The position numbers and the translations under genes are program-made. The notes under the pieces are model-generated. The model worked only from the letters and a program-made list of their open reading frames with translations, was not told the origin of the DNA and made no database searches. A DNA stretch of 64,000 nucleotides from Sphingomonas sp. M1-B02 (GTDB lineage: Bacteria > Pseudomonadota > Alphaproteobacteria > Sphingomonadales > Sphingomonadaceae). Below are positions 2,871 to 48,832 of the stretch, piece by piece. The stretch spans positions 2,591,501 through 2,655,500 of the forward strand of contig NZ_CP110679.1 in the NCBI RefSeq assembly GCF_026167525.1. Direction: 5' to 3'. The stretch's first letter is position 1; each line of letters begins with the position of its first letter.

Positions 2871-2933
2871 GCGATACTCCACGAGTCGGAGCGCCGCATA
2901 TACATGATTTACAGCCACTTAGCCTAGGGCAAC

Positions 2934-7445: not shown

Positions 7446-7505
7446 CGGGCTTTTCCTTCATTAACGGCGTAGGCGCGGCTCCGCACAGGTTTCTCACGCG
7501 CACGA

Positions 7506-8186: not shown

Positions 8187-8198
8187 GGCGAGCGGCTC

Positions 8199-9656: not shown

Positions 9657-9798
9657 GCCGGATCGCATAGACTCGAAGGCAGGCGGAGTCACGCAAAAAT
9701 CGATCGTTAGGTCACTGATGCTGACCTATAACGTTTCTTAGTTAGCGAACCGGCGGGCTGATCCGGGTTTCTTCCAAATCATTATGACCGATCCGGGC

Positions 9799-10599: not shown

Positions 10600-10626
10600 T
10601 TCGAATCCATGCCCCGGTCCGCGCTG

Positions 10627-11565: not shown

Positions 11566-11696
11566 CGCCGTCTCAACCTCTCCGAACGCGCCGCTCCCCA
11601 TGCCGCGCACGCGCGCAAACGGCAAGCGCGGCCAGCCACCGACAAGTCCGTTGACAAGCAAGCCACCCCTCCCCTAGAGCCGCCCGCCTACCCCGT

Positions 11697-11783
11697 GCCC
11701 GGATGGCGGAATTGGTAGACGCACCAGCTTCAGGTGCTGGCGCTCGCAAGGGCGTGGAGGTTCGAGTCCTCTTCCGGGCACCA
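11697..11783 (+). tRNA. tRNA-Leu (anticodon CAG)
   Basis: The acceptor stem 'gcccgga' (11697) pairs with 'tccgggc' (11773-11779), followed by discriminator A and an encoded CCA. The D-arm contains 'tggtagac'. The anticodon arm 'ccagc-ttcaggt-gctgg' gives anticodon CAG. There is a long variable arm ('gcgctcgcaagggcg') as expected for class II tRNAs, and the T-arm contains 'ggttcgagtcc'. The total is 87 nt. The last 18 bases plus two following bases are repeated at 13858, consistent with an integration site. Confidence 0.96.
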
Positions 11784-11785
11784 TT
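11766..11785 (+). repeat. attL-like direct repeat: 3' end of tRNA-Leu
   Basis: The 20 bases gtcctcttccgggcaccatt cover the 3' half of the T-stem, the acceptor strand and the CCA of tRNA-Leu. An identical 20-mer lies at 13858-13877 in the same orientation. Tyrosine-recombinase elements typically duplicate exactly this part of a tRNA gene. Confidence 0.7.
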
Positions 11786-12189
11786 CTCAGGAGCGCATAG
11801 AAAAGCGTGTTTTCCTGCGACATCATAGCGGACTCTCTGAGACCGGAGCCGATCGATCGGTAGCTTGGCGCCAATCGCGGTCGCGCTGTTGGATCGTCTG
11901 TGGAAAGTGCGTAGTTCACGTTGAGCCGCTGGGTCACCGGCGTTTGCTGGCGTGGCTGGTAGCCATTGGTGTGGCGCTCGGAAATTATCGCCAGCCATAG
12001 AGAGAAGTGTCCAACTTCAGTTGCGTGACAGAAATTGTCATCGATTTGAGTGCCCATCGCCGTCCCCGGTGGGTCCCGATCTTCAGGTAGCAGTGTTGCC
12101 AGGCGCTCTTGCGGACCCGCTTGGTAAGCTATGCTGGAAGCAATTATACTTGACTTGTAGGGAAATGTTCCTCAAATGTTCTCACCGCA

Positions 12190-13390
12190 ATGAAGATGCG
12201 GGGCCAATCAATGGACATTCATGGGGAGCAGCGACGGCGGGCTTTTTCCGTTTGGCTGCGCACGGGCCGACGACCGAGGCCTGGCGATGGTCGCAAACTC
12301 GAATTGAAGTTCAATCCGTGGCACGATCCGGACGACGGACGATTCACGTTTAGGGGGGCGGGTCGATATTACGGTGCTGGCGGAGCGAGCAGGGCCGATG
12401 GCCGGGGACAACGCACTCCGAAGATCAGCTATGCCGCAGACCCTCGTCTGCCTCCTATCTCGACGAGGGAGCAGGTGGAGGCCTGGAGGACGGAGGAGTT
12501 AGCCAGAAATGGGCATAGACCGGGGTTCCGGGAAGCCATTGAGGAGCAGTACCGGCGCTATCTCCAGGAACTTGATCTACAGACCCGCCCCCGGCCGGGT
12601 GCTTTCGGCATTCCCGAACGCTCCGATCGTCCGGCCGACCCGGTTGCCGGACAAAGCAATAGCTCGTTGGGTCAAGATGGCGTCGGCGTCGGCGGCGGCG
12701 GCGGTGGGGGGAGTTTTGGCGGTGGCGGTGCAAGTGGTAGCTGGGAGGCGCCCGAGCAGCAAACCGGGTACACGGGGCGGGTTCAGCGGGGGCGGGGGCA
12801 GTTCCCGCGGTGGAGGTGCGAGCGGTTCCTGGGACGGACCGGCGCATCCTGACTATTCTGCGGCCACGCCTTCAGCCGGGCCGGAGCTTCAAGGCCATGC
12901 AGGCGGATCGGCGAAAGCCCCCGATGGGCGAGTTGCCCGTAGCGCGAGCGAACCGCGTCACATCATCGTGCGCAACGGCTACACCTATGAAATTGATGCG
13001 CGCGGTAGGACGAGACGCGTGTCGGGCCTGCTGTCGGATACCGATACGCCAGCCCGTTCATCTACGACCCAGGCGAAAGCAGGCGGTGAAGACCGGCGGA
13101 TCAGCGACGATGGCGGGCACTATATCGCAGCGCGCTTCGACGGCCCTACGGATGCCTTCAATCACTTCGCCCAGGATGCCAATTTCAACCGCGGCCGCTA
13201 TCGTGTGCTCGAGGATGAGTGGGCGAAAGCCAAGCGAGCGGGCAAGGAGGTGACTGCGACGATCGTGCCGCATTGCCGTGAAGGGGCATTAAGGCCGTTT
13301 GAGATCGACGTCAGCTTCACGGTCAACGGTCAGAAGAGGAGCATCAAAATGCCCAATGAGCGAACGGAGAAACGCCGTGGCAAACGATGA
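12190..13390 (+). pseudogene. DNA/RNA non-specific endonuclease toxin, frameshifted
   Basis: The N-terminal half reads in one frame (12190 or ATG 12211 onward: RRRAFSVWLRTGRRP, then 'KLELKFNPWHDPDDGRFTF', then a charged helix 'EEQYRRYLQELDLQTRP', then Gly-rich 'GGGASGSWEAPEQQ'). The C-terminal half reads in the next frame (Gly-rich 'GGFSGGGGSSRGGGASGSWDGP', then 'GGHYIAARFDGPTDAFNHFAQD' and 'ANFNRGRYRVLEDEWAKAKR'). The latter matches the Endonuclease_NS_2-type nuclease domain of bacterial polymorphic toxins. The frame change falls near 12750-12775. Joined, it would be about 400 residues. It may be a true pseudogene, a sequence error, or recoded. The immunity gene follows directly, overlapping its last codons. 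Confidence 0.7.
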
Positions 13391-13796
13391 AACCGAGCAA
13401 CTGCTCGCTAAGATCAGTCACTTGCTGGCAAGAGATTCAGAGTATCCGCTCGACGGGACACTGCTCTATGCAGAAATCGACCAGAACTTTGTTGCGCCCG
13501 CGATATTCAAGAATCTTGCGGACCAGATCCTGTATCGCGACCCGGACCTCAGGGAGCTGGGTGATACCCTGCTCGACCTCTGGGAAGCGCAGGACACCGA
13601 TGATCGGTGGGAAGAGATCGAATATGTCGTGCGCGATGGAAAATTCGATGTCGCTTTCACCTATCCTGACGAAATCGACCGCGAGGAAGATCGGTTTGAG
13701 CGGCGCGACCGGGTGGTTCAGCGCCATTTCGGTATCAAGCCAATTGTATATCCTTCCCTATCCGATGAAAGTGAAGTGCCTCGGTATGAATTGTAG
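13377..13796 (+). CDS. Probable immunity protein, YezG/DUF600-like
   Basis: The 139-residue acidic protein starts at a GTG at 13377 with GGAG 7 bases upstream; this start lies inside the end of the toxin gene. It contains 'WEEIEYVVRDGKFDVAFTYPDEID', which resembles the W..lel.v..dGkF.i.F.Yd region of YezG/DUF600 immunity proteins that neutralise secreted nucleases. Strong acidity (DETEQ, AEIDQ, EAQDTDDRWEE) fits an inhibitor of a basic nuclease. Its position directly after the toxin supports the pairing. An in-frame ATG at 13356 is an alternative start. Confidence 0.72.
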   Translation: MANDETEQLLAKISHLLARDSEYPLDGTLLYAEIDQNFVAPAIFKNLADQILYRDPDLRELGDTLLDLWEAQDTDDRWEEIEYVVRDGKFDVAFTYPDEIDREEDRFERRDRVVQRHFGIKPIVYPSLSDESEVPRYEL

Positions 13797-13857
13797 CGCG
13801 AAATCATCGCCTATGACGCAAGATTAAAATACTCCAATGATCGGAGTGCCCATCTTT

Positions 13858-13877
13858 GTCCTCTTCCGGGCACCATT
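13858..13877 (+). repeat. attR-like direct repeat of tRNA-Leu 3' end
   Basis: This 20-mer is identical to 11766-11785. It lies 61 bases after the immunity gene stop, just downstream of a small hairpin (ACTCC...GGAGT, 13831-13847). The remaining bases up to the MFS gene start at 14202 contain no gene I can support. Confidence 0.7.
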
Positions 13878-14201
13878 TGTTCTTTTCAGGACATCCCAAA
13901 ACCATCGACAAAACCGCCGGAACCGGCGCTGAAGTCATTCTGGCGCGCATGGAGCAAGCGCGAAACTTGGGGTGGCTGGCGGTCACCGAGCCCTTCGAAC
14001 CCGCGCAATCTGCGTCAGGCAGTTCGGACACCGCTCCAGACGAGTCACGCCGCAACGGGGCACGCTAGCACGTAAAAGGCGGACGGACTGCCCGAGGGCG
14101 GATCTCCGCGCTGGGCATGGCTGTGCATGCATCGTCACTCCCGCGCATCCGAACTGGTTTCGCGGAGTTAACCCCTTCGACGGTATGCTGCGGAGCACGA
14201 A

Positions 14202-35847: not shown

Positions 35848-36318
35848 CTAGGCGTCGGCGATTGGCAATTCCTGCGTCGATTTTATCTCCGAGAGCGCGA
35901 CGGTGGAGTTGATTTCCTGGATGCCGGGCAGCTTGCTGAGCTTCTCGAAGAAGAATTTTTCATAGGCGTCGATGTCGGTCGCGACGATTCGGAGCATGAA
36001 GTCGGTCTGGCCCATGAGAACATAGGCATCGAGCACTTCGGGGAAGGAGCGGATCGCTGCGCTGAACTCGTCGAGATTGGTGCGGCCGTGCGCGTTCAGC
36101 CGAACCTGGGCGAAGATATGGGCGTTGAGCCCTATCTTGCGCCGATCGATCACGGCGACGCGCGCGCGGATCACGCCCTCGCGCTCGAGCCGATCGATCC
36201 GGCGCCAGCACGGTGAGGCGGAGAGCCCCACCTTGGCGGCGATCTCCGCCGTCGTCTGGCTGGCGTCTCGCTGCACTTCGCGGATGATCCTGCGCTCGTA
36301 TCGGTCCAACTCGATCAT
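35848..36318 (-). CDS. Lrp/AsnC-family transcriptional regulator
   Basis: The 156-residue protein has an N-terminal HTH ('LDRYERRIIREVQRDASQTTAEIAAKVGLSASPCWRRIDRLEREGVIRARVAVIDRRKIGL') and a C-terminal RAM/AsnC effector domain ('FPEVLDAYVLMGQTDFMLRIVATDIDAYEKFFFEKLSKLPGI'). The ATG at 36318 is preferred over an in-frame TTG at 36336. It is divergent from the leucine-dehydrogenase-family gene across 126 bases and probably controls it in response to an amino acid. Confidence 0.94.
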   Translation of the reverse strand: MIELDRYERRIIREVQRDASQTTAEIAAKVGLSASPCWRRIDRLEREGVIRARVAVIDRRKIGLNAHIFAQVRLNAHGRTNLDEFSAAIRSFPEVLDAYVLMGQTDFMLRIVATDIDAYEKFFFEKLSKLPGIQEINSTVALSEIKSTQELPIADA

Positions 36319-36444
36319 TTCATTCCCAAACTCCAAGGTTGCAGGTGATTCCTACCTCAAATAGCTCGCATCCCGCCAGCCTTAGGTGACATTGTTCGGT
36401 CCAGCCGGGCCATAAGACGCCGACCGCAAGCAGAGGTAGGCACA

Positions 36445-37506
36445 ATGGCATTTCAGATGGATCGGGCTTCGTTTCCGGCCGACGTTCGACTCGTGCGCGA
36501 CCAAGCGAGCGGGCTCGAAGCGGCGATCGTCCTGCATTCAACGACGCTCGGGCCGGCTGCGGGCGGCTGCCGCATGTGGACATATGGCGACCATGAGGCG
36601 ATGGTCACCGATGCCTGCCGGCTCGCGGAGGGGATGAGTTACAAGAATGCGCTGGCCGAGCTGCCGCTGGGCGGCGGCAAGGCAGTCATCCGCCGGCCCG
36701 AGGGCAAGTTCGACCGGACCGCACTTTTCCGGGCGTTCGGGCGCGCGGTCGAAGCGCTCAAGGGCAACTATATCACTGCCGAGGATGTCGGCACGCGGGT
36801 CGACGATATGTCGGTGGTCCGCGACGAGACGCGGCACGTTGCCGGCCTCCCGCTACGCGCGGATCGATCGGGTGGCGATCCTTCGCCATGGACCGCGCGC
36901 GGCGTCTTCCTGGCGATGGAATGGGCAGCCGAGCGCAGGCTAGAGCGGCCCTTGTCCGATTGCACCGTCGCGCTCCAGGGAGTCGGCCACGTTGGCGCGG
37001 CGCTGGCCGGGATGCTGCACGCCGCGGGCGTGCGGCTGATCGTATCCGATGTCGACGGCAAGAGCGCCGCGCGCGTGGCGGTGGCCACCGGGGCGACGGT
37101 CGCGAGTGTCGGCAGCATCGTCTCGGCGCAGGCGGATATCTTCGCGCCCTGCGCCCTCGGCGGCGTGCTGAACCATGAAACGGTGGGAAAGCTCAAGGCG
37201 ACGGTGGTTTGCGGCGCCGCCAACAACCAGCTGGCAGAGCCCGCAGACGGCGATCGGCTGGCCGATCGCAACATTCTCTATGCGCCCGATTATGTCGTGA
37301 ATGCCGGCGGGATCATCAACGTGGCGGCGGAGTATCTGGGCTGGCCGCAGACCGAGGCGGCGGCACGCGTCGAAGAAACCGCGGCTCGGCTGGCGCGCGT
37401 TTTCGACCATGCCGCCCGATCGGGGCTCGCCCCGCACGCCGCAGCCGATCGGCTGGCGCGGGAGACGATCGCCGCGGGTCGCACCGCCCGGCGCGCCGCG
37501 GCGTGA
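36445..37506 (+). CDS. Leu/Glu/Phe/Val dehydrogenase family enzyme (leucine dehydrogenase-like)
   Basis: The enzyme deaminates a branched-chain or aromatic amino acid to the 2-oxo acid with NAD. The 353-residue length fits leucine and phenylalanine dehydrogenases. Lys67 in 'EGMSYKNALAELPLGGGKAVI' and Lys79 in the same stretch match the substrate-binding and catalytic lysines of leucine dehydrogenase (68 and 80 in the Bacillus enzyme). The Rossmann motif is 'TVALQGVGHVGAALAGMLHAAG'. It is divergent from an Lrp-type regulator and followed after 7 bases by a small ACT-like protein gene. Confidence 0.93.
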   Translation: MAFQMDRASFPADVRLVRDQASGLEAAIVLHSTTLGPAAGGCRMWTYGDHEAMVTDACRLAEGMSYKNALAELPLGGGKAVIRRPEGKFDRTALFRAFGRAVEALKGNYITAEDVGTRVDDMSVVRDETRHVAGLPLRADRSGGDPSPWTARGVFLAMEWAAERRLERPLSDCTVALQGVGHVGAALAGMLHAAGVRLIVSDVDGKSAARVAVATGATVASVGSIVSAQADIFAPCALGGVLNHETVGKLKATVVCGAANNQLAEPADGDRLADRNILYAPDYVVNAGGIINVAAEYLGWPQTEAAARVEETAARLARVFDHAARSGLAPHAAADRLARETIAAGRTARRAAA

Positions 37507-37513
37507 TCGCGCG

Positions 37514-37741
37514 ATGCGTCTTGCCATCAAGGGCGCGGCCTCGCCTGAATTCGCGCTTCGCGTGCTCAACCTCTTGGCGCAGCAGGACGTGACCGTCGAG
37601 CGAGCGCTGATCGAACTGGTCGGCGATCGCTATCGGCTATCGCTGGATACGGCGGCAGCCGCCCGCGACGACCTGATCGTCGAGAAGATCGGCGCGATGA
37701 TCCTCGTCCACCATGTCGAGCGGCTGGACGTCGTCGCCTGA
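37514..37741 (+). CDS. Small ACT-like protein (75 aa)
   Basis: The ATG at 37514 begins 'MRLAIKGAASPEFALRVLNLLAQQDVTVERALIEL', with the beta-alpha-beta pattern of an ACT or RAM-type amino-acid-binding domain ('SPEFALRVLNLLAQQ' resembling the first ACT helix). A separate 'DLIVEKIGAMILVHHVERLDVVA' follows. The function is unknown; as the second gene after an amino-acid dehydrogenase it could sense an amino acid or regulate the enzyme. It ends 6 bases before the end of the convergent XRE-cupin gene. Confidence 0.7.
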   Translation: MRLAIKGAASPEFALRVLNLLAQQDVTVERALIELVGDRYRLSLDTAAAARDDLIVEKIGAMILVHHVERLDVVA

Positions 37742-37747
37742 ACGCCG

Positions 37748-38386
37748 TCAGGCGGCGGCGTCGCCGTGCAGGCTCATCAGCGAATCCATCAGGCCCTCGT
37801 CGGCGCTCGAGCATACGCCGAGCACCAGCGCCTCTTCGCAGCCATCGGCGACGACATAGGCATGGCCCATCGACGAATCGAGATAGATGGTCTCGCCGGG
37901 GCCGAGCACCACCGGATCGTAGAATTCGGTGTGCACTTCGATCCGGCCTTCGATGACGTAGATGAATTCCTCGCCCTGGTGACGGACGAGGTCGCCGAAC
38001 TCGCGGGCGCTGTGTGCGCGAATGCGCGTGATCAGCGGGATCATTCGTTTGCGGCGCAAATCGGTGCAGAGATAGTTGTAGTCGTAGTTCGGCGTGGTGA
38101 CCCGCACCGCCTGGTCCATCGTGCCCACGCTGCGCCGCCCGGTGACGCGCACGACATTGTCGTCGGTCCCCTCGGCGAAAAGGTCCGACATGCGGATGTT
38201 CAACCGCTGGCTGAGCTGCTGGAGCTTGTCATAGGTCAGCGTCAGCCGATCATGCTCGACCTTTGACAAGGTCGATACCGGGATGCCGGATTTCTCGCTC
38301 ATCTGCTTGAGCGTCCAGCCATGGCGAGCACGGATGCCACGCAGCACTGCGCCCAGTGTCGGAGGGGAAGAGCCTTTCGCGATCAA
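37748..38386 (-). CDS. XRE-family regulator with C-terminal cupin domain
   Basis: The 212-residue protein has an HTH_XRE domain at about 10-68 ('LGAVLRGIRARHGWTLKQMSEKSGIPVSTLSKVEHDRLTLTYDKLQQLSQRLNI') and a cupin_2 sensing domain at about 115-200 ('REFGDLVRHQGEEFIYVIEGRIEVHTEFYDPVVLGPGETIYLDSSMGHAYV'). Regulators of this class usually repress nearby catabolic genes and sense amino acids or related small molecules. It is divergent from the serine hydrolase gene at 38519 across a promoter region whose core sequence is repeated before the TonB receptor gene at 41697. It is therefore the likely regulator of the D-amino-acid peptide locus. Confidence 0.93.
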   Translation of the reverse strand: MIAKGSSPPTLGAVLRGIRARHGWTLKQMSEKSGIPVSTLSKVEHDRLTLTYDKLQQLSQRLNIRMSDLFAEGTDDNVVRVTGRRSVGTMDQAVRVTTPNYDYNYLCTDLRRKRMIPLITRIRAHSAREFGDLVRHQGEEFIYVIEGRIEVHTEFYDPVVLGPGETIYLDSSMGHAYVVADGCEEALVLGVCSSADEGLMDSLMSLHGDAAA

Positions 38387-38402
38387 AGCAGCCGTTCCCT
38401 AT

Positions 38403-38430
38403 TTGACAATTTTCCAATCAGGATCATTAT
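38403..38430 (+). promoter_or_regulatory. Promoter/operator copy 1 of the D-amino-acid peptide locus
   Basis: TTGACA at 38403-38408 is followed after 16 bases by CATTAT (38425-38430). The spacer contains TCCAATCAGGA. Over 21 bases from TTGACA it matches copy 2 at 41534 except at two positions. The conserved block sits between -35 and -10, the usual place of a repressor operator, and lies next to the XRE-cupin gene. A perfect 12-base palindrome, CAATGACCATTG, lies downstream at 38449-38460. Confidence 0.6.
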
Positions 38431-38518
38431 GTCCCTATCGGGTTAAACCAATGACCATTGATAGGGATTCGCGCGACGGGCTGCAACCGTCTGCGCTGAT
38501 GTAGAAAAGGGGCAAGCG

Positions 38519-40516
38519 ATGCGTTCGATCCGCAAGCTGATGATTGGGCTGACGGCACTGCTGGCGCTGCCGTTGTCGGTGCAGCTCCTCGCGCAGGGAC
38601 CTGCCCCGCAGCTTCCCTCGGGCGAGGCCGTCCGTGGCGCCGCCGCACCGCCCGTCGGGCAGGCGACGGGCGCGACGCCGCCGCTCGACGCCAAGGATGT
38701 CGAAGCCTGGCTTGACGGGTTCATGCCCTATTCGCTGGAGCGCGGCCGGATCGCCGGCGCGATCGTGGTCGTGGTGCGCGGCAACGGCACCGTGTTGCAG
38801 AAGGGCTATGGCTATGCCGATCTCGCCTCGCGCAAGCCGGTGTCTCCAGACGCCACGCTGTTCCGCCCTGGATCGATCTCCAAGTTGTTCACCTGGACCG
38901 CCGTCATGCAGCAGGTCGAGGCCGGCAAGATCGGGCTCGACCAAGACGTCAACGCCTATCTCGATTTCAAGATTCCGCCGTTCGATGGCAAGCCGATCAC
39001 GATGCGCCATATCATGACGCACACAGCCGGATTCGAGGAATCGGTCCGCCACCTGATCAGCGCCGATCCCAAGCGCGCGCTGCCGCTCAAGCAGTTGATG
39101 CCGTTGGCGCTTCCCCAGCGCGTGTTCGCGCCGGGGACGACGCCCGCTTATTCCAATTATGCGACGGCTTTGGCGGGCTATATCGTCGAGCGGGTGAGCG
39201 GCGTGCCGTTTGACGACTATATCGAAAGGCGCGTCTTCGCCCCGATCGGTATGGCGCGGTCGAGTTTTCGCCAGCCTCTCCCCGATGCGCTCAAGCCGCT
39301 AATGTCGACCGGCTATGCCGACGTGACCCAGAAGGGCAAGCCGTTCGAGATCGTCATTCCGGCGCCCGCCGGCAGCCTGTCCTCGACAGGCGCGGACATG
39401 GGCAAGTTCATGATGGCGCATCTCAACAACGATGGCACGCTGCTCAAGCCCGAGACGATGCGGGCAATGCACGACTATCGCGCACCCGGCGTGGGTCCGC
39501 TCAATACGATGGCGCTCGGCTTCTACGAGCAATGGGTCAACGGCCAGCGCGCGATCTCGCACGGTGGCGATACCGAGTGGTTTCACAGCGATCTGTGGCT
39601 GTTCCCCGAATCGGATATCGGCCTCTACATCTCGATGAACAGCGCGGGCGTCGACGGTGCGGCGCATGCGATCCGCAGCGCGCTGTTCCACAAGTTCGCC
39701 GATCGCTACCTGCCGCGCGAGGAAAAGTTCGGTCGCGTCGATGACGCGACCGCGCGGGAACATGCCGCGCTCATGGCCGGCAACTATGTCAGCAGCCGCG
39801 GCTCGTTCACCAACTTCCTGAGCGTGCTCAACCTGCTCGGCCAGGCGTCCGTCACGGTCGACGAGGACGGGAAGATCGCCTTTCCGGCGCTCGACGGCCT
39901 GAGCGCAGCGGCGCGAGACTGGGTGGAGATCGCGCCGTTCGTGTGGCGCGACACCAATACCGGTGAGCGGCTTGCGGCGGAGGTCAAGGACGGCAAGGTC
40001 GTGCGCTTCAGCATCGACATCGGATCGCCTTTCATGGTGTTCGAGCCGGCGCCGTTCGGGCTGAACACCGTTTGGCTGATGCCGGCTTTGCTCGCGGCAC
40101 TTGGTCTCGTGCTGCTGGCGGCGCTCGCCTGGCCGGTCCGCGCGCTCGTGCGGCGCAGCTATGGGCAGAAGCTGGCGCTGGAGGGACGGTCGCGACTTGC
40201 CTATCGGCTGTCGCGCGGCTTTGCCTGGGCGGTGCTTGCGGCCGTAGCCGGCTGGATGGGGCTGATTTCGGCCTTCTCGGCGGATATCGGTGCGATCGGC
40301 GGACCGCTCGACTGGCTGATCCAATTGCTGCGGGTGCTGACTCCGGTCGCCACGATCGGGCTGGTCGCGTCGAGCGGATGGCTGCTCTGGCTCACCTTCA
40401 AGGACCGGCGCCGCTGGACGGCCAAGCTGGGCGCGACGCTCCTGCTACTCGCCGGGCTGCTCTTGCTCTGGGTCGTTCTGGCTACGCATCTCTATGGCTT
40501 CGGCATGGTCTATTGA
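38519..40516 (+). CDS. Serine hydrolase (class C beta-lactamase/DD-peptidase fold) with C-terminal membrane segments
   Basis: The 665-residue protein has a signal sequence, a beta-lactamase-fold domain at about 60-430, a linker domain, and about four C-terminal membrane helices (from 'TVWLMPALLAALGLVLLAALAWPV' to the end). The catalytic S119xxK122 is in 'RPGSISKLFTW', and Y211-S-N213 in 'TPAYSNYATALAGYIVERVSG' gives the YxN motif. Such enzymes include D-aminopeptidases, DD-peptidases and esterases. AGGGG lies 6 bases before the ATG. It is followed after 2 bases by the dgcA-like gene, suggesting that it releases D-amino-acid-containing pieces from peptides. Confidence 0.9.
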   Translation: MRSIRKLMIGLTALLALPLSVQLLAQGPAPQLPSGEAVRGAAAPPVGQATGATPPLDAKDVEAWLDGFMPYSLERGRIAGAIVVVVRGNGTVLQKGYGYADLASRKPVSPDATLFRPGSISKLFTWTAVMQQVEAGKIGLDQDVNAYLDFKIPPFDGKPITMRHIMTHTAGFEESVRHLISADPKRALPLKQLMPLALPQRVFAPGTTPAYSNYATALAGYIVERVSGVPFDDYIERRVFAPIGMARSSFRQPLPDALKPLMSTGYADVTQKGKPFEIVIPAPAGSLSSTGADMGKFMMAHLNNDGTLLKPETMRAMHDYRAPGVGPLNTMALGFYEQWVNGQRAISHGGDTEWFHSDLWLFPESDIGLYISMNSAGVDGAAHAIRSALFHKFADRYLPREEKFGRVDDATAREHAALMAGNYVSSRGSFTNFLSVLNLLGQASVTVDEDGKIAFPALDGLSAAARDWVEIAPFVWRDTNTGERLAAEVKDGKVVRFSIDIGSPFMVFEPAPFGLNTVWLMPALLAALGLVLLAALAWPVRALVRRSYGQKLALEGRSRLAYRLSRGFAWAVLAAVAGWMGLISAFSADIGAIGGPLDWLIQLLRVLTPVATIGLVASSGWLLWLTFKDRRRWTAKLGATLLLLAGLLLLWVVLATHLYGFGMVY

Positions 40517-40518
40517 CG

Positions 40519-41520
40519 ATGCGGGGTGCGAAGCGGCTGACGCTCAGCCTGACGATCGAGCGCTTTCCTTATCACAAGCCGTTTCGCATCTCGGGCCACG
40601 TCTTCGCCGAGACCGCGGTGCTCGTCGCCGAAATCTCCGACGGCGAGCATCGCGGCCGCGGCGAGGGTGCCGGGGTCTATTATCTCGGCGACGATGCCGC
40701 CCACATGCTAGCCGAGGCCGAGCGAGTGCGCGGGCCGATCGAAGCCGGGGCAACGCGCGCGGAGCTGCAGGCGCTGCTGCCCCCCGGCGGCGCGCGCAAC
40801 GCGCTCGACTGTGCATATTGGGAGCTGGAGGCGCAGCAGACGGGCAAGCCGGTATGGCAGCTCGCCGGGCTCGATCGGGCCCGCCCGCTGCGCTCAACGC
40901 TCACGCTCGGGGCGGACACGCCCGAGGCAATGGCCGCCGGCGCGCTGGCGATTGACCCCGAGGCGCCGCTCAAGCTGAAACTCACCGGTGAGCTTGGCGA
41001 GGACAGCGCCCGGCTCGCGGCGGTGCGCATGGCGCGGCCCGACGCGTGGATCGGTGTCGATGCGAACCAGGGCTATGCAATCGAAACGTTGCGGTTGCTG
41101 CTTCCAGTGCTGGTCGCCAATGGGATCGCCTTGCTCGAACAGCCTCTCGCGCGCGGACGAGAAAGCGATCTCGACGGGCTCAAACGTCCGATGCCTTTCG
41201 CTGCCGATGAAAGCGCGGTCTCGCTCGCCGACACGACGGGGCTCGTCGGCCGGTTCGACGTGGTGAACATCAAGCTCGACAAATGTGGCGGGCTTACCGA
41301 AGGGCTTGCGATTGCCGGGCGAGCGCGCCAGCTCGGGCTCGAGGTGATGGTCGGCAATATGATGGGAAGCAGCCTGTCGATGGCGCCTGCTTACCTGCTC
41401 GGCCAATTATGCGACGTCGTCGATCTCGATGGGCCGACTTTTCTGGCACAAGATCGCACCCCCGGCGTGGTCTATCGCCACGGCCAGATCCTCTGTCCCG
41501 ACGGCGTCTGGGGCGATTAG
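40519..41520 (+). CDS. dgcA: Enolase-superfamily racemase/epimerase, DgcA or dipeptide epimerase
   Basis: The 333-residue protein is of the muconate-lactonising subgroup. Residues visible: KxK at Lys152/Lys154 ('LKLKLTGE'), metal ligands Asp181 ('GVDANQGY'), Glu207 ('LLEQPL') and Asp230 ('AADES'), and Lys252/Lys255 ('NIKLDKCGG'). Members epimerise L-Ala-D/L-Glu from murein peptides. A closely related enzyme, DgcA, racemises N-acetyl-D-glutamate in the D-glutamate pathway with DgcN. Because a DgcN-type gene is in this locus, I favour DgcA, but dipeptide epimerase remains possible. Only 2 bases separate it from the upstream hydrolase gene; the real start is the ATG at 40519. Confidence 0.85.
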   Translation: MRGAKRLTLSLTIERFPYHKPFRISGHVFAETAVLVAEISDGEHRGRGEGAGVYYLGDDAAHMLAEAERVRGPIEAGATRAELQALLPPGGARNALDCAYWELEAQQTGKPVWQLAGLDRARPLRSTLTLGADTPEAMAAGALAIDPEAPLKLKLTGELGEDSARLAAVRMARPDAWIGVDANQGYAIETLRLLLPVLVANGIALLEQPLARGRESDLDGLKRPMPFAADESAVSLADTTGLVGRFDVVNIKLDKCGGLTEGLAIAGRARQLGLEVMVGNMMGSSLSMAPAYLLGQLCDVVDLDGPTFLAQDRTPGVVYRHGQILCPDGVWGD

Positions 41521-41533
41521 TTCTCCGATGGGG

Positions 41534-41561
41534 TTGACAGTTCTCCAATCAGGACAAATAG
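41534..41561 (+). promoter_or_regulatory. Promoter/operator copy 2 of the D-amino-acid peptide locus
   Basis: TTGACA at 41534-41539 is followed by a spacer containing TCCAATCAGGA (41544-41554) and an A/T-rich -10 region (acaaatag). It matches copy 1 at 38403 in 19 of the first 21 bases. It lies about 140-160 bases before the TonB receptor start, inside a 176-base gap between dgcA and the receptor gene, so it probably starts a second transcript under the same control. Confidence 0.6.
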
Positions 41562-41696
41562 TCTCGTAATCGAAAATGTAACAATGCGGGTATGGAGCGA
41601 GTCGCTCCGATCGACGCGTCACGCGGCAAACGCGGGCGTGGCGGACCCACAAATCTGTCAGCCGCTGGCGTGCCGGCATATCCTGGGGAAGATGGA

Positions 41697-43895
41697 ATGA
41701 AGCAGGCACTCTGGATCGCATGCAGCACCCTTGCCCTCGCCGCGCCGCCCGCTTTCGCCCAGGATGCATCTGCGGGGCAAGACGAGAGCCAGATCGTCGT
41801 CACCGCGCAGAAGCGCGAACAGGTGCTGATCGACGTCCCCCAGTCGGTGTCGGTGGTGAGCGGAGCGACCCTGGAGCGGCAGCAGGCGGTCACGTTCCAG
41901 GACTATGCGAAACTGATCCCGGGGCTCCAGCTTGAGCAGAGCAATCCTGGCGAAGCGCGCATCGTATTGCGCGGGATCAACACCGGCGGCGTGGCCTCGA
42001 CCGTGTCGACCTATATCGACGAAACCCCGTTCGGATCCTCGAGCGGGCAGAATAACGGCGCGATCCTGGCCGGAGAGTTCGACACGTTCGACGTTGCCCG
42101 GATCGAAGTGCTGCGGGGCCCCCAGGGCACGCTCTATGGCGCGAGCTCGCTGGGCGGGGTGGTCAAGTTCGTGACCAATGCCCCACAGACCGAGAGCATC
42201 GAGGCGCGCGCGCGCGGCACGGTGGAGACCACCGAGGGCGGCGAGCTCTCCTATATGGGCCAGGCGATGGTGAACCTGCCGGTCTCCGACAAGATCGCGA
42301 TCCGGGGATCGGGCTTCTATCGCTCCTATGGCGGCTACATCGACTCGATCGGCACCGCCGGTTCGGACGTGGCGGAGAATATCAACGGCTCAAAAAGCTA
42401 TGGCGGCCGCCTCTCGGCTCTGCTCACGCCGAGCGAGGCGCTGACCGTCAGGCTGAGCGCCGTACTGCAGGATTTCGACAGCGACGCCGCCAGCGTGGTG
42501 GATGTCGATGCCGCGACGCTCGCGCCGCTGTATGGCGGCCTCACCCAATCGCAATATGTGCCCGAATTCACGAAGGTCAAATATCGGCTCTACAACGGCA
42601 CCATCAATCTCGATCTGGGCGCGGCCGAGCTGCTCTCCTCGACCAGCTATGCGATCCAGGACGTGACGCTGCGCGACGATCTGACCACGGCCTACGGCGC
42701 TGCGCTGGGTGTACCGAGCGATATCGGCATGGCGCAGATGACCAACCTGACCAAATGGACGCAGGAGCTGCGGCTGCAGTCCCCGACCAGCGACAGCTTC
42801 GAATGGCTGCTCGGCGGCTATTACACGCACGAGAAGGGTGGCATCTTCCAGCGTATCGACTTGTTCACGCCCGGCACGCTGACGATCGATCCGGCAATGC
42901 CGCAGGTCGCCGATATCTTCACGACTTCGACCTATGAGGAATATGCGGCCTTCGCCAACGCAACGCTGCACTTCGGGCCGCGCTTCGATATAACGGTCGG
43001 CGGCCGGTACAGTCACAATTCGCAATATGCCGATCAGGGCGGGACCGGGCTGCTCGCCCCGCCGGCGCTCGAATCCGAATCGTCCGAAGACGTGTTCACC
43101 TGGTCCGGTGCCGCCAAGTATAAGCTTTCGCAGAATGCCGCTTTGTATGCGCGCGTTGCCAAGGGCTTCCGCCCGGGCGGGCCGAACCTGCTGCCGCCCG
43201 GCGTGCCGGCGGGCACCCCCTTGTCCTACAAGTCCGATTCGCTGATCAGCTACGAAGTCGGCGTGAAGGCCGAGACCGCCGACAACAGCTTCTCGATCGA
43301 TGCCGCAGCCTTCCGCATCAATTGGACCGACATCCAGCTGTTCACTGTCATCAACGGCTTCGGACTCAACGCGAACGGCGGCAAGGCCAAGAGCGAGGGG
43401 TTCGAATTCACCGCGACGGCGCGGCCGACTCGCGGTTTCGTCGTGTCGCTCAACGGCGCCTACACCCGGGCACGGCTCACCAACGATACCGATCCGAACG
43501 TGGGTGGACTGGCGGGCGATACGCTGCCCTTCACGCCGGAGTTCAACTGGAACGCGAATGCCGATTACAGCTGGAACGTCGGCGGCGAGACCGAGGCGTT
43601 CGTCGGCGCATCGCTCCGCTCGCTTTCGAAGCAGCGCGCCAATTTCGATGCGGGCTTCGGCGCGGCCTATGGGCTCGACCGGCCGACCGTGCCGGCCTAC
43701 GAAGTCATCGATCTGCGCGCGGGGCTCGATTTTGGCCGCTTCACGGTCGATATCTTCGCCAAGAACCTGGCCAATGCCCGCGGCGTGACCGATGTCTCAA
43801 CGGGCGGCGGCCTTCCGGTGGCTCCCAATGGCGCGATCACCACCGGTATCGTGCGGCCCCGCACCTTCGGCATCACGCTCGGCGCGGGCCTCTGA
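41697..43895 (+). CDS. TonB-dependent outer-membrane receptor (D-amino-acid peptide locus)
   Basis: The 732-residue protein starts at the ATG at 41697, chosen because the signal peptide 'MKQALWIACSTLALAAPPAFAQ' follows. A TonB-box-like 'SQIVVTAQKREQ' precedes the plug ('VPQSVSVVSGATLERQQAVTFQDYAKLIPGLQLEQ', 'VLRGINTGG', 'EVLRGPQGTLYGASSLGGVVKFVTNAP'). The barrel ends 'RPRTFGITLGAGL' with fewer terminal aromatics than usual. The 'RGPQGTLYGA' pattern is typical of the FyuA/Fiu-like sphingomonad group. It is likely to import peptides or muropeptides for the downstream enzymes. dgcN starts 5 bases after its stop. Confidence 0.95.
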   Translation: MKQALWIACSTLALAAPPAFAQDASAGQDESQIVVTAQKREQVLIDVPQSVSVVSGATLERQQAVTFQDYAKLIPGLQLEQSNPGEARIVLRGINTGGVASTVSTYIDETPFGSSSGQNNGAILAGEFDTFDVARIEVLRGPQGTLYGASSLGGVVKFVTNAPQTESIEARARGTVETTEGGELSYMGQAMVNLPVSDKIAIRGSGFYRSYGGYIDSIGTAGSDVAENINGSKSYGGRLSALLTPSEALTVRLSAVLQDFDSDAASVVDVDAATLAPLYGGLTQSQYVPEFTKVKYRLYNGTINLDLGAAELLSSTSYAIQDVTLRDDLTTAYGAALGVPSDIGMAQMTNLTKWTQELRLQSPTSDSFEWLLGGYYTHEKGGIFQRIDLFTPGTLTIDPAMPQVADIFTTSTYEEYAAFANATLHFGPRFDITVGGRYSHNSQYADQGGTGLLAPPALESESSEDVFTWSGAAKYKLSQNAALYARVAKGFRPGGPNLLPPGVPAGTPLSYKSDSLISYEVGVKAETADNSFSIDAAAFRINWTDIQLFTVINGFGLNANGGKAKSEGFEFTATARPTRGFVVSLNGAYTRARLTNDTDPNVGGLAGDTLPFTPEFNWNANADYSWNVGGETEAFVGASLRSLSKQRANFDAGFGAAYGLDRPTVPAYEVIDLRAGLDFGRFTVDIFAKNLANARGVTDVSTGGGLPVAPNGAITTGIVRPRTFGITLGAGL

Positions 43896-43900
43896 TCGGC

Positions 43901-44959
43901 ATGGCATCTTCGAGTGTGACCGCGGCTCCTCACGCGAGTGAGGGTATGCCGACCATTCTGCCGCAGCCCTATCTCTTGTTCCTCGGCGACACCACCGAAG
44001 CGGGCTTCGCCAAGACCGCGCTCGGCCTGGTCGATTGGGCGGGTGACCGCTGCGTGGGGGAGCTGGCGGTGGCGGGCTGCACCGTCACCACCGGCCTGCC
44101 GCGCATGTCGCCCGCGCAGGCCAGGGCGGCGGGGGCGCAATCGCTGGTGATCGGCGTCGCCAATCAGGGCGGGGTGATCGGCGATAGCTGGATCGCAGCG
44201 CTGGTCGAGGCGATGGAAGCGGGCCTCGACCTGATCAGCGGACTGCACATGCGGCTGGCCGCGGTTTCGGCGCTGGCCGAAGCGGCTCAGCGCACCGGGC
44301 GCCGGCTGATCGACATCCGCACCCCGCCTCCCTCGATCCCGGTCGCGACGGGCCGCAAGCGGAGCGGCAACCGCCTGCTGACCGTGGGCACCGATTGCGC
44401 GCTCGGCAAGAAATATACCGCGCTGGCGCTGCACCGCGCCTTCGTGGCCCGCGGCGTGGATGCCGATTTCCGCGCCACCGGTCAGACTGGGATCATGATC
44501 GCCGGCGGCGGCATCCCGATGGACGCGGTGGTCTCCGATTTCGAGGCAGGCGCCGCGGAGATGCTCAGCCCGGATGCCGAGCCCCGGCATTGGGACGTGA
44601 TCGAGGGACAGGGATCGATCTATCACCCCGCTTATGCCGCGGTTTCGCTGGGGCTGCTCCACGGCAGCCAGCCCGACGTGTTCGTCGTCTGCCACGATCC
44701 GGCGCGCACCCATGTGCTCGGGCTCGACGGCTTTGCCTTGCCATCGATCGAGGAGGTCATCGATCTCACCGTCCACCTCGGCAGCCGCACCAATCGGGCG
44801 ATCCGCTGTGGCGGGGTCAGCTTCAACACCGGTCGCTATGGCGAGGAGACCGCCGAGGCGTTGATGTCCGCGGAAAGCGACCGGCTCGGCCTGCCCGTCG
44901 CCGATCCGATTCGCGGCGGCGCCGCGTTCGACGCGCTGGTCGCGAACTGCCTCGCATGA
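43901..44959 (+). CDS. dgcN: DUF1611 protein, D-glutamate N-acetyltransferase DgcN
   Basis: The protein has an N-terminal DUF1611_N domain ('PQPYLLFLGDTTEAGFAKTALGLVDWAGDRCVGELA') and a P-loop C-terminal domain with 'TVGTDCALGKKYTALALHRAF' (GxxxxGKK) and 'DVIEGQGSIYHPAYAAVSLGLLHGSQPDVFVVCHDP'. DUF1611 proteins named DgcN acetylate D-glutamate using acetyl-CoA; DgcA then racemises N-acetyl-D-glutamate. I list the ATG at 43901 (352 residues); the ATG at 43946 (337 residues) directly before the domain is equally plausible. Its stop overlaps the permease start (ATGA). Confidence 0.85.
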   Translation: MASSSVTAAPHASEGMPTILPQPYLLFLGDTTEAGFAKTALGLVDWAGDRCVGELAVAGCTVTTGLPRMSPAQARAAGAQSLVIGVANQGGVIGDSWIAALVEAMEAGLDLISGLHMRLAAVSALAEAAQRTGRRLIDIRTPPPSIPVATGRKRSGNRLLTVGTDCALGKKYTALALHRAFVARGVDADFRATGQTGIMIAGGGIPMDAVVSDFEAGAAEMLSPDAEPRHWDVIEGQGSIYHPAYAAVSLGLLHGSQPDVFVVCHDPARTHVLGLDGFALPSIEEVIDLTVHLGSRTNRAIRCGGVSFNTGRYGEETAEALMSAESDRLGLPVADPIRGGAAFDALVANCLA

Positions 44960-46089
44960 TCGCCGGCGAACCGGGCAGGGCAAGCTGGTTCCAGCGCTTC
45001 CTGTTGCCCGGCTTCGCGCTGAAGGCCGTGATCATCGGCGGCGGTTACGCCACCGGACGCGAGCTTGCCGAATATTTCGTCCCCGCCGGCCCGTGGGGCG
45101 GGCTGGCGGCGATGCTGCTGGCGATGGCGATCTGGAGCCTCGTAGCGGCGCTGACCTTCGCGCTCGCCCGGGCGATGCATGCTTATGATTATCGCAGCTT
45201 CTTCGAAGGCTTGCTCGGTCCCGGCTGGATCGCCTTCGAGATCGCCTATCTGATCTTCGTGATCCTCATCCTCGCCGTGTTCGGCGCCGCGGCGGGGGCG
45301 ATCGGCGCGGCCACCTTCGGCTGGCCAGAGGCGGTCGGGTCGATCCTGCTCGCCGCAGGGATCATCGTCACCACCGCGCTCGGCACCAGTGCCGTCGAGC
45401 AATTGTTCAAATATGTCTCGATCCTGCTTTACGCCGTCTACGCCCTGTTCCTGGTGCTGGCGCTGGTCAGCTTCGGCGGGCTGATCGGGCGGGGTTTCGC
45501 CGCCGCGCCGCCGCCCTCGGGCGACTGGATCGCGGGCGGGCTGACCTATGCCAGCTACAATATCGTCGGCGCGGTGGTGATCCTGCCGATGCTGCGCCAC
45601 CTCACCAGCCGCCGCGATGCCGTGGTCGCCGGATTGATCGCCGGCCCGCTGGCAATGCTCCCGGCGATCCTCTTCTTCGTCGCGATGATGGCCTTTTATC
45701 CGGCGATCGGCAGCGAGGTCCTGCCCTCCGATTTCCTGCTGCGGGCGATGAACATTCCCGCCTTCCACTTGCTCTTCCAGCTGATGATCTTCGGCGCCCT
45801 GCTCGAAAGCGGCGTCGGCGCGGTCCATGCCGTCAACGAGCGCATTTCGGGCGCAGTCGAGGCCCGCGGACGCCCGCCGCTCGGCACCCGGGCGCGCGGG
45901 GCGATCGGCGCGCTGATCCTCGCCGGCTGCATGTTCGTGGCGGCGCGGATCGGGCTGATCGACCTCATCGCCAGCGGCTATCGCTTCCTCGCCTGGATGT
46001 TCTTGATCGTCTATCTCGCGCCGCTGCTGACGCTTGGCGTCTGGCGGCTGCTGCGCACCCCCGAACCACCGCTGGAGCCGTTGCCATGA
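44956..46089 (+). CDS. YkvI-family membrane protein, probable permease
   Basis: The 377-residue protein has about ten membrane segments. The unwound first helix 'LLPGFALKAVIIGGGYATGRELAEYF' carries the GGGYATGRE motif characteristic of YkvI-type APC-superfamily proteins; 'LTYASYNIVGAVVILPMLRHLTSRRDAVVAG' is a second conserved region. The substrate is unknown; given the operon, an amino acid or dipeptide taken across the inner membrane is likely. The start overlaps the dgcN stop (ATGA), and its stop overlaps the start of the next gene in the same way. Confidence 0.88.
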   Translation: MIAGEPGRASWFQRFLLPGFALKAVIIGGGYATGRELAEYFVPAGPWGGLAAMLLAMAIWSLVAALTFALARAMHAYDYRSFFEGLLGPGWIAFEIAYLIFVILILAVFGAAAGAIGAATFGWPEAVGSILLAAGIIVTTALGTSAVEQLFKYVSILLYAVYALFLVLALVSFGGLIGRGFAAAPPPSGDWIAGGLTYASYNIVGAVVILPMLRHLTSRRDAVVAGLIAGPLAMLPAILFFVAMMAFYPAIGSEVLPSDFLLRAMNIPAFHLLFQLMIFGALLESGVGAVHAVNERISGAVEARGRPPLGTRARGAIGALILAGCMFVAARIGLIDLIASGYRFLAWMFLIVYLAPLLTLGVWRLLRTPEPPLEPLP

Positions 46090-47663
46090 AGCCGATCCGC
46101 ATGCTCGCTCTGGGGCTGATGCTCGCCGTCGCGACGCCCGCCGCCGCCGATCCCCCGTCCGATCTAGCTGCCCGCGTCGAGGCGCTGCGCAAGCAGATCG
46201 GTGCCACCGGTGTCTCGATCGCGATCGTCGAGAACGGCAAGACCACGCTGGCGCGGGGCTGGGGCGAGCGCAAGCTTGGCGACAAGGCCAAGGTCGACGA
46301 ACGGACGATCTTCCAGACCGGCTCGACCGGCAAGGCGATGACCGCCGCCGCGCTCGCGATCCTCGTCGACGAAGGCAAGATCGCCTGGGACGATCCGGTG
46401 ATCAAGCACATCCCCTGGTTCCGCATGTACGATGCCTGGGTGACGCGCGAGATGACGGTGCGCGACCTGCTCGTCCACCGCAGCGGCCTCGGCCTCGGCC
46501 AGGGCGATCTTATGTTCGTGCCGCGCACCCATCTCACCCGCAAGCAGACCGTCGAGCGCATCGCCTTCCTCAAGCCCAGGACCAGCTTTCGGTCCTCCTA
46601 CGCCTATGACAATGTCCTCTACGCCGTCGCCGGCCAGCTGATTGAGGAAGTCACCGGCAAGAGCTGGGAAGTCTTCATCCGCGAACGGCTGCTGCGCCCC
46701 GGCGGCATGACCGACGCCACCAGCGACAGCGAAGACCGTTTCCGCATCGCCAACCGCTCGCATCCGCATGCCCGCCTCTCGGGCGCGCTGCGCGGCCTCG
46801 GCCCGCAGCAAGTGCTCGACGAGCGCGACGAGCTCGGCCGCAACGGCGCCCCCGCCGGCGGCCTCGCGCTCAGCGCCAACGACATGGCGGCGTGGCTCAA
46901 GATCCAGCTCGCGTATGGCGCGCTCCCCGACGGCAAACGCCTGTTCAGCAAGAAGCAGGCGCTCGAGATGTGGAACCCGGTGGTGACAATGCCGATCACT
47001 CCGCTGCCCCCGTCGCTCTTGCCCGCCATGCCCACTTACCAGGCCTATGCGCTCGGCTGGCAGGTCCAGGATTATCGCGGCCACCGCATCGTCGCGCATA
47101 GCGGCGGCGTGTTCGGATCGATCACCCGCGTCGTGATCGTCCCCGACAAAAACATCGCCTTCGCGATCATGATGAATTCCGAGGACAGCGGCATGCTGCT
47201 CGGCCTCTATTACATGCTGCTAGATCACTATCTCGGCGTGTCCGACCGCGACTGGACCAAGAACTGGCAGGATTGGTACGAACAGCGCCTCGAAGGCGGC
47301 CGCGCCTTCCTCGCTCAGGCCAAGGCCGCGCCCGCCAAAATCGGCCCCTCGCTCGATCTCGCGCGCTACGCCGGCCGCTATCGCGATCCCTGGTATGGCG
47401 ACGTCGTCGTCGCCTCGACTCCGCAGGGCCTGACCATCGACTTTACTTCGACTCCGCGGATGCAGGGCCGGCTCAAGCACTGGCAATATGACAGCTTCGT
47501 CATGGACTTTGACGACAAGGCGATCGAACCCGCTTACGTCACCTTCGCGCTCGACGCCGACGGCAAGATCGCCGGCGTGACCATGAAAGCAACGAGCCCC
47601 ATTGCCGATTTCAGCTGGGATTATCACGATCTCGACCTCAAGCCGGTGGTAGACGCAAAGTGA
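46086..47663 (+). CDS. Secreted serine hydrolase (class C beta-lactamase/D-aminopeptidase-like)
   Basis: The 525-residue protein has a signal peptide ('MLALGLMLAVATPAAA'), catalytic S80xxK83 in 'TGSTGKAMTAAALAILVDEGKI', Y174-D-N176 in 'SSYAYDNVLYAVAGQLIEEVTGKSW', and an H-S-G triad motif in 'IVAHSGGVFGS'. A C-terminal lipocalin-like domain (about 400-525) follows, as in many beta-lactamase-fold D-aminopeptidases and esterases. It overlaps its neighbours by 4 bases on each side, so it is translationally coupled within the operon. It probably cleaves peptides with D-residues in the periplasm. Confidence 0.92.
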   Translation: MKPIRMLALGLMLAVATPAAADPPSDLAARVEALRKQIGATGVSIAIVENGKTTLARGWGERKLGDKAKVDERTIFQTGSTGKAMTAAALAILVDEGKIAWDDPVIKHIPWFRMYDAWVTREMTVRDLLVHRSGLGLGQGDLMFVPRTHLTRKQTVERIAFLKPRTSFRSSYAYDNVLYAVAGQLIEEVTGKSWEVFIRERLLRPGGMTDATSDSEDRFRIANRSHPHARLSGALRGLGPQQVLDERDELGRNGAPAGGLALSANDMAAWLKIQLAYGALPDGKRLFSKKQALEMWNPVVTMPITPLPPSLLPAMPTYQAYALGWQVQDYRGHRIVAHSGGVFGSITRVVIVPDKNIAFAIMMNSEDSGMLLGLYYMLLDHYLGVSDRDWTKNWQDWYEQRLEGGRAFLAQAKAAPAKIGPSLDLARYAGRYRDPWYGDVVVASTPQGLTIDFTSTPRMQGRLKHWQYDSFVMDFDDKAIEPAYVTFALDADGKIAGVTMKATSPIADFSWDYHDLDLKPVVDAK

Positions 47664-48832
47664 AGCCGCTCGCCATCGCCCTCGCAGCGCTGACGCTGTC
47701 CGGCGGCGTCACCACCGGCGCCGCCGAGGATCCCGCCGCGCTCCACAAGCGCCTCCTTACCCTGGACACCCATCTCGACACTCCGCTCCACTTCGGCCGC
47801 GAGGGCTGGCGCTTCGACGCCCGCCATAGCCCCGCCGACGATATCTCGCAGGTCGATCTCGGCCGGATGCGGGAAGGCGCGCTCGATGGCGGCTTCTTCG
47901 TCATCTATACCGATCAGGGCCCGCTCAGCGCCCAGGGCTATGCCGACGCGCTCGCCTTCGCCCGCACGCGCTCGGACCTGATCGACCGCACGATCGCCGC
48001 CTATCCCAAGCAGATCGCCCCGGCGCTGACGGCGGCAGACGCGCGGCGGCTGGACGGCGAGGGCAAGCTGTTCGCCTTCAAGTCGATCGAGAACAGCTAC
48101 CCCCTCGGTGAAGACCTGTCTCTGCTCGCCGAATTCTACGCAAAGGGCGTCCGCCTCGCCGGCCCCGTCCACGGCAAGAACAACCAGTTCGCCGATTCCG
48201 CCACCGACGCCCCGCGCTGGAACGGCCTCAGCCCGCTCGGCCGTTTATGGGTCGCCGAGATGAACCGCCTCGGCATGGTCATCGACGCGAGCCATGCCTC
48301 CGACGCCGCGTTCGATCAAATGCTCGAACTCTCGAAATACCCGATCCTCCTCTCGCATTCGAGCCTGCGCTCGGCCTATGACCATCCCCGGAATCTCGAC
48401 GAGGACCGGCTGCGCAAGCTTGCCGTCAAAGGCGGGGCGATGTGCATCTCGACCATCTATCTGTCCGAGATGAACCTCACCGCCGAGCGCGCCGAGCTGT
48501 TCGGCAGATACGAGCAGATCGGCACCCTCTCTCCGGCCGATCAGGCCGACCTCACGCGCCGCTGGAACGCGCTCAACACCCGCGAAAAGATGTGGAACGC
48601 CGATTTCGAAAAAGTCATGGCGATGCTGCTGCGGGCGATCGAGGTGGCGGGCATCGACCATGTCTGCGTCGGCGCCGATTGGGACGGCGGCGGCGGCGTC
48701 GATGGGATCGAGGACATCACCGCACTCCCCAAGATCACCGCCCGCCTCAAGGCGGCGGGCTATGGCGACGCCGAAATCGAGAAGATCTGGAGCGGCAACG
48801 TGCTCCGTATCCTCGGCCGACAAAAGGGATAA
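47660..48832 (+). CDS. Membrane dipeptidase, M19 family
   Basis: The 390-residue protein starts at a GTG overlapping the upstream stop (GTGA) and has a short signal peptide ('MKPLAIALAALTLSGGVTTGAA'). M19 zinc-site residues are visible: His38 and Asp40 in 'LDTHLDTPLHF', Glu in 'FKSIENSYPLG', His in 'VIDASHASDAAFDQ' and His in 'PILLSHSSLRS', with Asp in 'VGADWDGGGG'. M19 dipeptidases are known for cleaving dipeptides with a C-terminal D-amino acid. It is the last gene of the run TonB receptor-dgcN-permease-hydrolase-dipeptidase. A GC-rich hairpin (48837-48853) follows the stop. Confidence 0.95.
   Translation: MKPLAIALAALTLSGGVTTGAAEDPAALHKRLLTLDTHLDTPLHFGREGWRFDARHSPADDISQVDLGRMREGALDGGFFVIYTDQGPLSAQGYADALAFARTRSDLIDRTIAAYPKQIAPALTAADARRLDGEGKLFAFKSIENSYPLGEDLSLLAEFYAKGVRLAGPVHGKNNQFADSATDAPRWNGLSPLGRLWVAEMNRLGMVIDASHASDAAFDQMLELSKYPILLSHSSLRSAYDHPRNLDEDRLRKLAVKGGAMCISTIYLSEMNLTAERAELFGRYEQIGTLSPADQADLTRRWNALNTREKMWNADFEKVMAMLLRAIEVAGIDHVCVGADWDGGGGVDGIEDITALPKITARLKAAGYGDAEIEKIWSGNVLRILGRQKG

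Follow-up and report, generated by a model that had tools for sequence, protein, structure and literature searches.

Which D-amino acid would be consumed by a locus that couples homologues of the D-glutamate enzymes DgcN and DgcA to an outer-membrane receptor and peptide hydrolases? The question is raised by eight genes at positions 37748 to 48832 of a 64,000-nucleotide stretch of Sphingomonas sp. M1-B02 DNA (contig NZ_CP110679.1, positions 2,591,501 to 2,655,500 of the forward strand; hereafter the window). The original prediction had read them as a scavenging locus for D-amino-acid peptides ending in D-glutamate catabolism. The locus is real, conserved, apparently co-regulated and such as one would expect for the use of D-residue peptides. 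Its DgcN-like and DgcA-like proteins both depart from the canonical enzymes, and we propose, with about even confidence, that this regulated scavenging operon for D-residue peptides uses the pair mainly on a neutral, probably aliphatic D-amino acid and not on glutamate. Its parts are the following.

37748 to 38386, minus strand: XRE-cupin regulator, TTG start, HTH_3 and Cupin_2 domains.
38403 to 38423, plus strand: promoter/operator-like site 1, TTGACAATTTTCCAATCAGGA, one of two genome matches.
38519 to 40516, plus strand: serine hydrolase 1 (PF00144), SISK at 119 and YSN at 211.
40519 to 41520, plus strand: enolase-superfamily epimerase/racemase of the Gly26 branch; 354 of 400 bits with NF042940, not DgcA by cut-off.
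40594 to 40596, plus strand: codon of enolase G26; Arg at the equivalent site in canonical DgcA and YcjG.
40681 to 40683, plus strand: codon of enolase Y55; Arg of PYxRYGE in canonical DgcA and YcjG.
41534 to 41554, plus strand: promoter/operator-like site 2, TTGACAGTTCTCCAATCAGGA, the second of the two genome matches.
41697 to 43895, plus strand: TonB-dependent receptor, plug and beta-barrel domains; reading frame open from 41592, ATG at about 41697.
43901 to 44959, plus strand: DgcN-like DUF1611 protein; 442 of 480 bits with NF041892, not DgcN by cut-off.
44717 to 44719, plus strand: codon of DUF1611 L273; Arg in canonical DgcN (7xrj chain index 255).
44956 to 46089, plus strand: YkvI-type permease, APC/LeuT-like fold by fold match of the AlphaFold model.
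46086 to 47663, plus strand: serine hydrolase 2 (PF00144 and DUF3471), STGK at 80 and YDN at 174.
47660 to 48832, plus strand: M19 dipeptidase (PF01244), HLD motif at 38.

All eight genes named in the original prediction are present at these places, the regulator facing seven genes on the opposite strand, and Pfam and NCBIfam scans bore out this content, the permease alone giving no family match. The seven genes had been described as tightly packed, which holds for their spacing. ATGA/GTGA overlaps link the DUF1611 gene to the permease (44956-44959), the permease to the second hydrolase (46086-46089) and the latter to the dipeptidase (47660-47663), and 2 bases lie between the stop codon of hydrolase 1 and the enolase ATG (40519). 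A single unit is less probable: the enolase and TonB receptor genes lie about 176 bases apart, with another promoter-like site between them, and the seven genes probably form two transcription units.

The sequence TTGACAnTTYTCCAATCAGGA lies upstream of hydrolase 1 and of the TonB receptor, that is, at the start of both units. With up to 3 mismatches allowed, this 21-base site occurs at these two places only in the 3.6 Mb genome (reversed control, 0), and the exact 11-base core was found 2 times, against 0.69 expected from base composition. In relatives, the core (at most 1 mismatch) is present in 46 of 60 gaps between regulator and hydrolase 1 and in 14 of the 62 gaps that follow the enolase gene, the reversed control being 0 in both cases. 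As the operator-like site is common to the two units, it supports their co-regulation. The XRE-cupin protein is the probable repressor of both promoters and would act by binding to these sites.

To describe conservation, 175 stretches encoding relatives were obtained from one scan, of which the 80 best were retained; removal of L022, a duplicate, left 79 named loci. A gene was counted when its best panel match reached at least 60 bits in the fetched stretch; such counts are lowered by contigs ending inside the cluster and can be raised by paralogues elsewhere in the stretch. The regulator was found in 75 loci, hydrolase 1 and the DUF1611 protein in 76 each, the permease in 73, the TonB receptor and the dipeptidase type of the window (M19a) in 59 each, and hydrolase 2 in 56. 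Regulator, hydrolase 1, enolase, DUF1611 protein and permease occur all together in 69 of the 79. The relatives span many genera, including Erythrobacter, Novosphingobium, Niveispirillum and Stenotrophomonas, and the association of these genes is, on the sequence evidence, not due to chance. The predicted set of genes leading from the outer membrane to the cytosol and suited to D-residue peptides is supported as a conserved and co-regulated one. Across the order, 165 of 296 sampled genomes have an enolase match at E 1e-40 or better, canonical and window-type proteins mixed. The TonB receptor shows a median identity of 38% (43 matches) across L011-L059, compared with 71-81% for the seven other genes; it is exchanged among loci, as if varied front ends feed one catabolic core.

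Other genes recur in the fetched stretches: a second M19 type in 40 of the 79, PF07969 amidohydrolases, which we take to be of the D-aminoacylase type, also in 40, and POT oligopeptide symporters in 6. A variant cluster (L063, L064, L069, L071-L073, L075, L076, L078, L079, L083, L088) comprises an alpha/beta hydrolase, PF07969 and Xaa-Pro-dipeptidase-like amidohydrolases, the latter scoring below the family cut-off; some of these clusters carry a further enolase as well as a POT symporter.

With regard to the enolase-superfamily protein, DgcA is still its best NCBIfam match, below cut-off as listed, and the L-Ala-D/L-Glu epimerase model NF011708 gives 229 bits against a cut-off of 343. The catalytic lysine pair and the three metal ligands are present (K154, K252, D181, E207 and D230, with roles that we assume from the superfamily). 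Among solved folds, 4gfi and the epimerase 1jpd, which we take to be YcjG, come nearest to it, and many of its named relatives are listed as 'dipeptide epimerase'. A quick tree of 105 of the 186 sequences, thinned by hand and rooted on 3iji, places the window enolase in a 70-row side (support 82) with an inner 56-row core (100); the opposite 34-row side (support 86) takes in 1jpd and 4gfi together with the NCBI-defined DgcA loci. The window enolase therefore does not group with NCBI-defined DgcA. The original prediction had named clustering with an unrelated specificity as an outcome that would tell against it, and in part this applies.

The two sides differ at residue 21 of PDB entry 1jpd (chain index 24, the residue range being -2 to 321): 69 of the 70 sequences on the side of the window exhibit Gly and one (L076) Ser, whereas 32 of the 34 on the other side exhibit Arg, with Phe in L168 and His in L169. 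On this numbering the residue is not equated with a glutamate-binding Arg24, and the argument relies on conservation. Most canonical enolases carry the motifs I[SA]RG and PYxRYGE, whereas the nearest relatives of the window enolase carry I[SAT]G[HY] and a VYYLGD-like loop. The site of Y55 is Tyr in 98% of the Gly group and Arg (PYxRYGE) in the canonical group, a difference at index 53 that is partly circular as the canonical group was defined in part by its RY motif; seven sphingomonad enolases of a third class possess Arg24 without the RY motif. The residue-defined groups differ at 1jpd indexes 50, 51, 53, 54 and 278 too. In the third sphingomonad class (L165, L185-L189), the Arg is mostly kept, the loop is IYYxGE-like and no DUF1611 match was found in the fetched stretch.

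The DUF1611 protein exhibits the two-domain architecture of its family (PF17396 and PF07755), its nearest PDB entry is 7xrj (352 bits), and DgcN remains its best NCBIfam match despite the score under the cut-off. For comparison, DUF1611 proteins were grouped by the enolase of their own locus and not by their own residues, and duplicate fetches were removed from the canonical group. At 7xrj index 255, Arg is present in 7xrj and in 23 of 23 canonical sequences; the window has Leu (L273), and Arg occurs in 0 of 89 sequences (88 loci with a Gly-type enolase). The window protein thus lacks the Arg that we used as our own, non-curated, criterion for DgcN. The 89 sequences comprise 72 Leu, 4 Ile, 3 Met, 1 Val, 3 Ser, 1 Ala, 4 Glu and 1 Asp, so that L, I, M or V occupies the position in 80. 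Apart from L168, the non-Arg rows of the 85-row DUF1611 tree, 60 in number, form a single set with support 100. L168, which has the Phe-type enolase, exhibits Gly at index 255 and adjoins a TonB receptor; it may be a separate case, though its branch is long. The Glu variants belong to L152, L157, L163 and L120, where the substrate is perhaps basic.

That an Arg has been lost from each of the two partners speaks against a substrate with an acidic side chain. A neutral substrate is preferred to an acidic one because of this residue loss and of the neighbouring genes, two of which, upstream of the regulator (35848-37506), are probably part of the locus too.

35848 to 36336, minus strand: Lrp/AsnC-type regulator (Pfam AsnC_trans_reg and HTH_24), divergent from the dehydrogenase; a likely accessory part.
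36445 to 37506, plus strand: leucine-dehydrogenase-like (ELFV) gene, best PDB match 6acf; likely the last step in loci carrying it.

The dehydrogenase matches leucine dehydrogenase 6acf with 315 bits, followed by tryptophan (260), phenylalanine (198) and glutamate (82 at best) dehydrogenases. It occurs in the stretch of 19 of the 79 relatives, on either strand; in 18 of these it lies no more than 700 bp from a cluster gene, in one 4.7 kb away; the Lrp homologue occurs in 20, together with the dehydrogenase in 18. Among whole genomes of the order-wide sample with an enolase match of at least 309 bits, the dehydrogenase class is present in 15 of 30, the class being defined as at least 348 bits at a gap in the score list picked after viewing, above a general class at about 220-323 bits. 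In 6 of these 15 genomes, dehydrogenase and enolase are no more than 10 kb apart, and contig ends may hide further cases. The class is present in 3 of 26 genomes without a close enolase match; these were hand-chosen, 22 being of the same genus and six having weaker enolase matches. Without correction for kinship, Fisher's test gives p = 0.0035 for 15/30 versus 3/26, and within the genus p = 0.008 (5/7 versus 3/22). A possible 75-residue gene without Pfam match lies between the dehydrogenase and the regulator (37514-37741); in L020, a small open reading frame, also without match, likewise adjoins the dehydrogenase.

The remaining parts allow a route to be drawn, in which every biochemical step, like the substrate, is deduced from sequence. 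The TonB receptor would bring peptides into the periplasm, where the exported serine hydrolases and the M19 dipeptidase would cut them to free amino acids, outside the cytosol. Both hydrolases exhibit SxxK and YxN motifs and, judged by eye, they share signal-like N-termini with the receptor and the dipeptidase; the C-terminal part of hydrolase 1, also by eye, is hydrophobic. The dipeptidase is a clear member of PF01244 (293 bits, gathering cut-off 26), nearest in the PDB to the dipeptidase 2rag (411 bits). The free D-amino acid would then be imported by the permease, for which the YkvI name of the original prediction finds no support in Pfam or NCBIfam. Its AlphaFold model (pLDDT 89) gives Foldseek matches to AdiC (E 4.4e-06, TMq 0.64) and BasC (E 5.0e-06, TMq 0.71) at 13% identity, and the predicted structure therefore has an APC/LeuT-like fold. 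In the cytosol, the DUF1611 protein would N-acetylate the D-amino acid, the enolase-fold enzyme would racemise the N-acetyl-D form, and an unlinked deacetylase would release the L-amino acid, the candidate being the one M20-type amidohydrolase above cut-off elsewhere in the genome. Where present, the leucine-dehydrogenase-like enzyme would deaminate this L-amino acid.

The main alternative is the original view of a true DgcN/DgcA pair in a locus that feeds on the D-glutamate of murein peptides. Murein is known to supply D-glutamate, the serine hydrolases and the M19 peptidase suit murein peptides, the best NCBIfam matches are DgcA and DgcN, and the PF07969 amidohydrolases of the relatives also fit. 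We nevertheless consider this view rather unlikely. Catabolism of D-glutamate by DgcA and DgcN is not supported by the scores under both cut-offs, by the loss of Arg in both proteins or by the side of the tree on which the enolase falls. Moreover, the genome carries three DUF1611 genes, and one of them, at L007 (C1:3266500-3284000, 5738-14106), belongs to a DgcN-DgcA pair above both NCBI cut-offs. That pair adjoins a PF07969 amidohydrolase and a transporter of the SDF family (dicarboxylate/glutamate type), whereas the Pfam scan detected no SDF-type transporter among the eight genes of the window. L007 also includes a gene that we take to be PBP4-like. A D-glutamate ending is less likely than one in a neutral D-amino acid. 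The third DUF1611 gene, at L008 (C1:2741500-2760500, 2066-10866), lies in a second but incomplete copy of the window-type locus with an M19 dipeptidase and serine hydrolases, near an IS240-type transposase domain (PF13610); in that stretch no enolase was found and the permease is cut to its first residues, and for these two reasons L008 was set aside as the functional locus. In another scenario, which we regard as unlikely, the enolase is an L-Xaa-D-Yaa dipeptide epimerase, with the DUF1611 protein acting alongside it on free D-amino acids. The retained DxD motif, the nearest folds, the names of many relatives and the occasional POT symporters are consistent with it; however, the DUF1611 partner in 76 of 79 loci is what is expected if its product is the substrate of the enolase, and the permease has the predicted fold of an amino-acid transporter. 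Specificity for cyanobacterial peptides such as microcystins, as in the mlr cluster, is very improbable. Relatives do occur in Sphingopyxis microcysteis and Sphingosinicella microcystinivorans, and mlr clusters, as far as the excerpts of PMC10467064 and PMC6256522 go, also comprise a serine hydrolase of the penicillin-recognising type, a dipeptidase and a D-aminoacylase. The relatives are nevertheless spread across many genera, whereas the mlr island is described in an excerpt of PMC6563193 as likely unique to microcystin degraders.

Several observations also weigh against a neutral substrate and a jointly regulated locus. Of the 62 post-enolase gaps of relatives, 48 gave no match to the second operator-like site, and the branch separation of the enolases is modestly supported outside the 56-row core; our confidence is tempered for these two reasons. 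The residue switches need about two changes per tree, so that the pairing of enolase and DUF1611 types does not represent many independent observations. The Gly branch gained Arg residues (R173 and R212 in the window), with which a carboxylate could be held differently, and the window enolase keeps the DxD motif, presumably a dipeptide-ammonium site. In one source (P0003), a close relative bears the name 'L-Ala-D/L-Glu epimerase / N-acetyl-D-glutamate racemase', and 60 of the 79 relatives have no dehydrogenase in the fetched stretch.

Compared with known systems, the locus most resembles the DgcN-DgcA pathway (EC 2.3.1.312 and 5.1.1.25 in PMC11747546), which serves as a D-glutamate route in PMC10845958. 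The same two protein families are paired, probably for N-acetylation and then racemisation. In contrast to that pathway, the window pair scores under both cut-offs, has lost the canonical Arg, belongs to the opposite side of the enolase tree, and is coupled to a TonB receptor, hydrolases, an M19 dipeptidase and a YkvI-type permease. The window enolase differs from the E. coli L-Ala-D/L-Glu epimerase YcjG (1jpd) by its score under the NF011708 cut-off and by two changed loops, and is 25-30% identical to the dipeptide epimerases 3jva, 3q45 and 3rit. The sphingomonad mlr cluster, compared by its description and not by sequence, is similar in directing a serine hydrolase, a dipeptidase and a D-aminoacylase against a peptide that contains D-residues; it differs by its mlrCADBEF arrangement and, in the parts of the sources at hand, no DUF1611 protein or epimerase is mentioned. 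In a collection of open-licence papers, we found no description of the combined locus or of the M19 specificity, which does not imply absence in print, and no paper treating D-glutamate together with DUF1611.

More tentatively, and with somewhat less than even confidence, we suggest that the acetylate-racemise route is a general platform. It may have been retuned in the widespread locus described here: with a matched Arg replaced in both enzymes, free neutral aliphatic (e.g. branched-chain) D-amino acids would be turned into their L forms without an oxidase, and the leucine dehydrogenase would finish the route, with DUF1611 position 255 as a charge selector. If so, Arg at this position would select acidic side chains, an aliphatic residue neutral ones, and Glu or Asp (5 of the 89 sequences) basic ones. 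The locus gives defined positions in two partner enzymes for the study of specificity, and suggests a separate specificity class for a large group of proteins that are at present annotated as 'dipeptide epimerase' or DgcA-like. If true, a route for the recycling of D-residue peptides by sphingomonads would also be identified; such peptides are a part of recalcitrant organic matter that is poorly understood.

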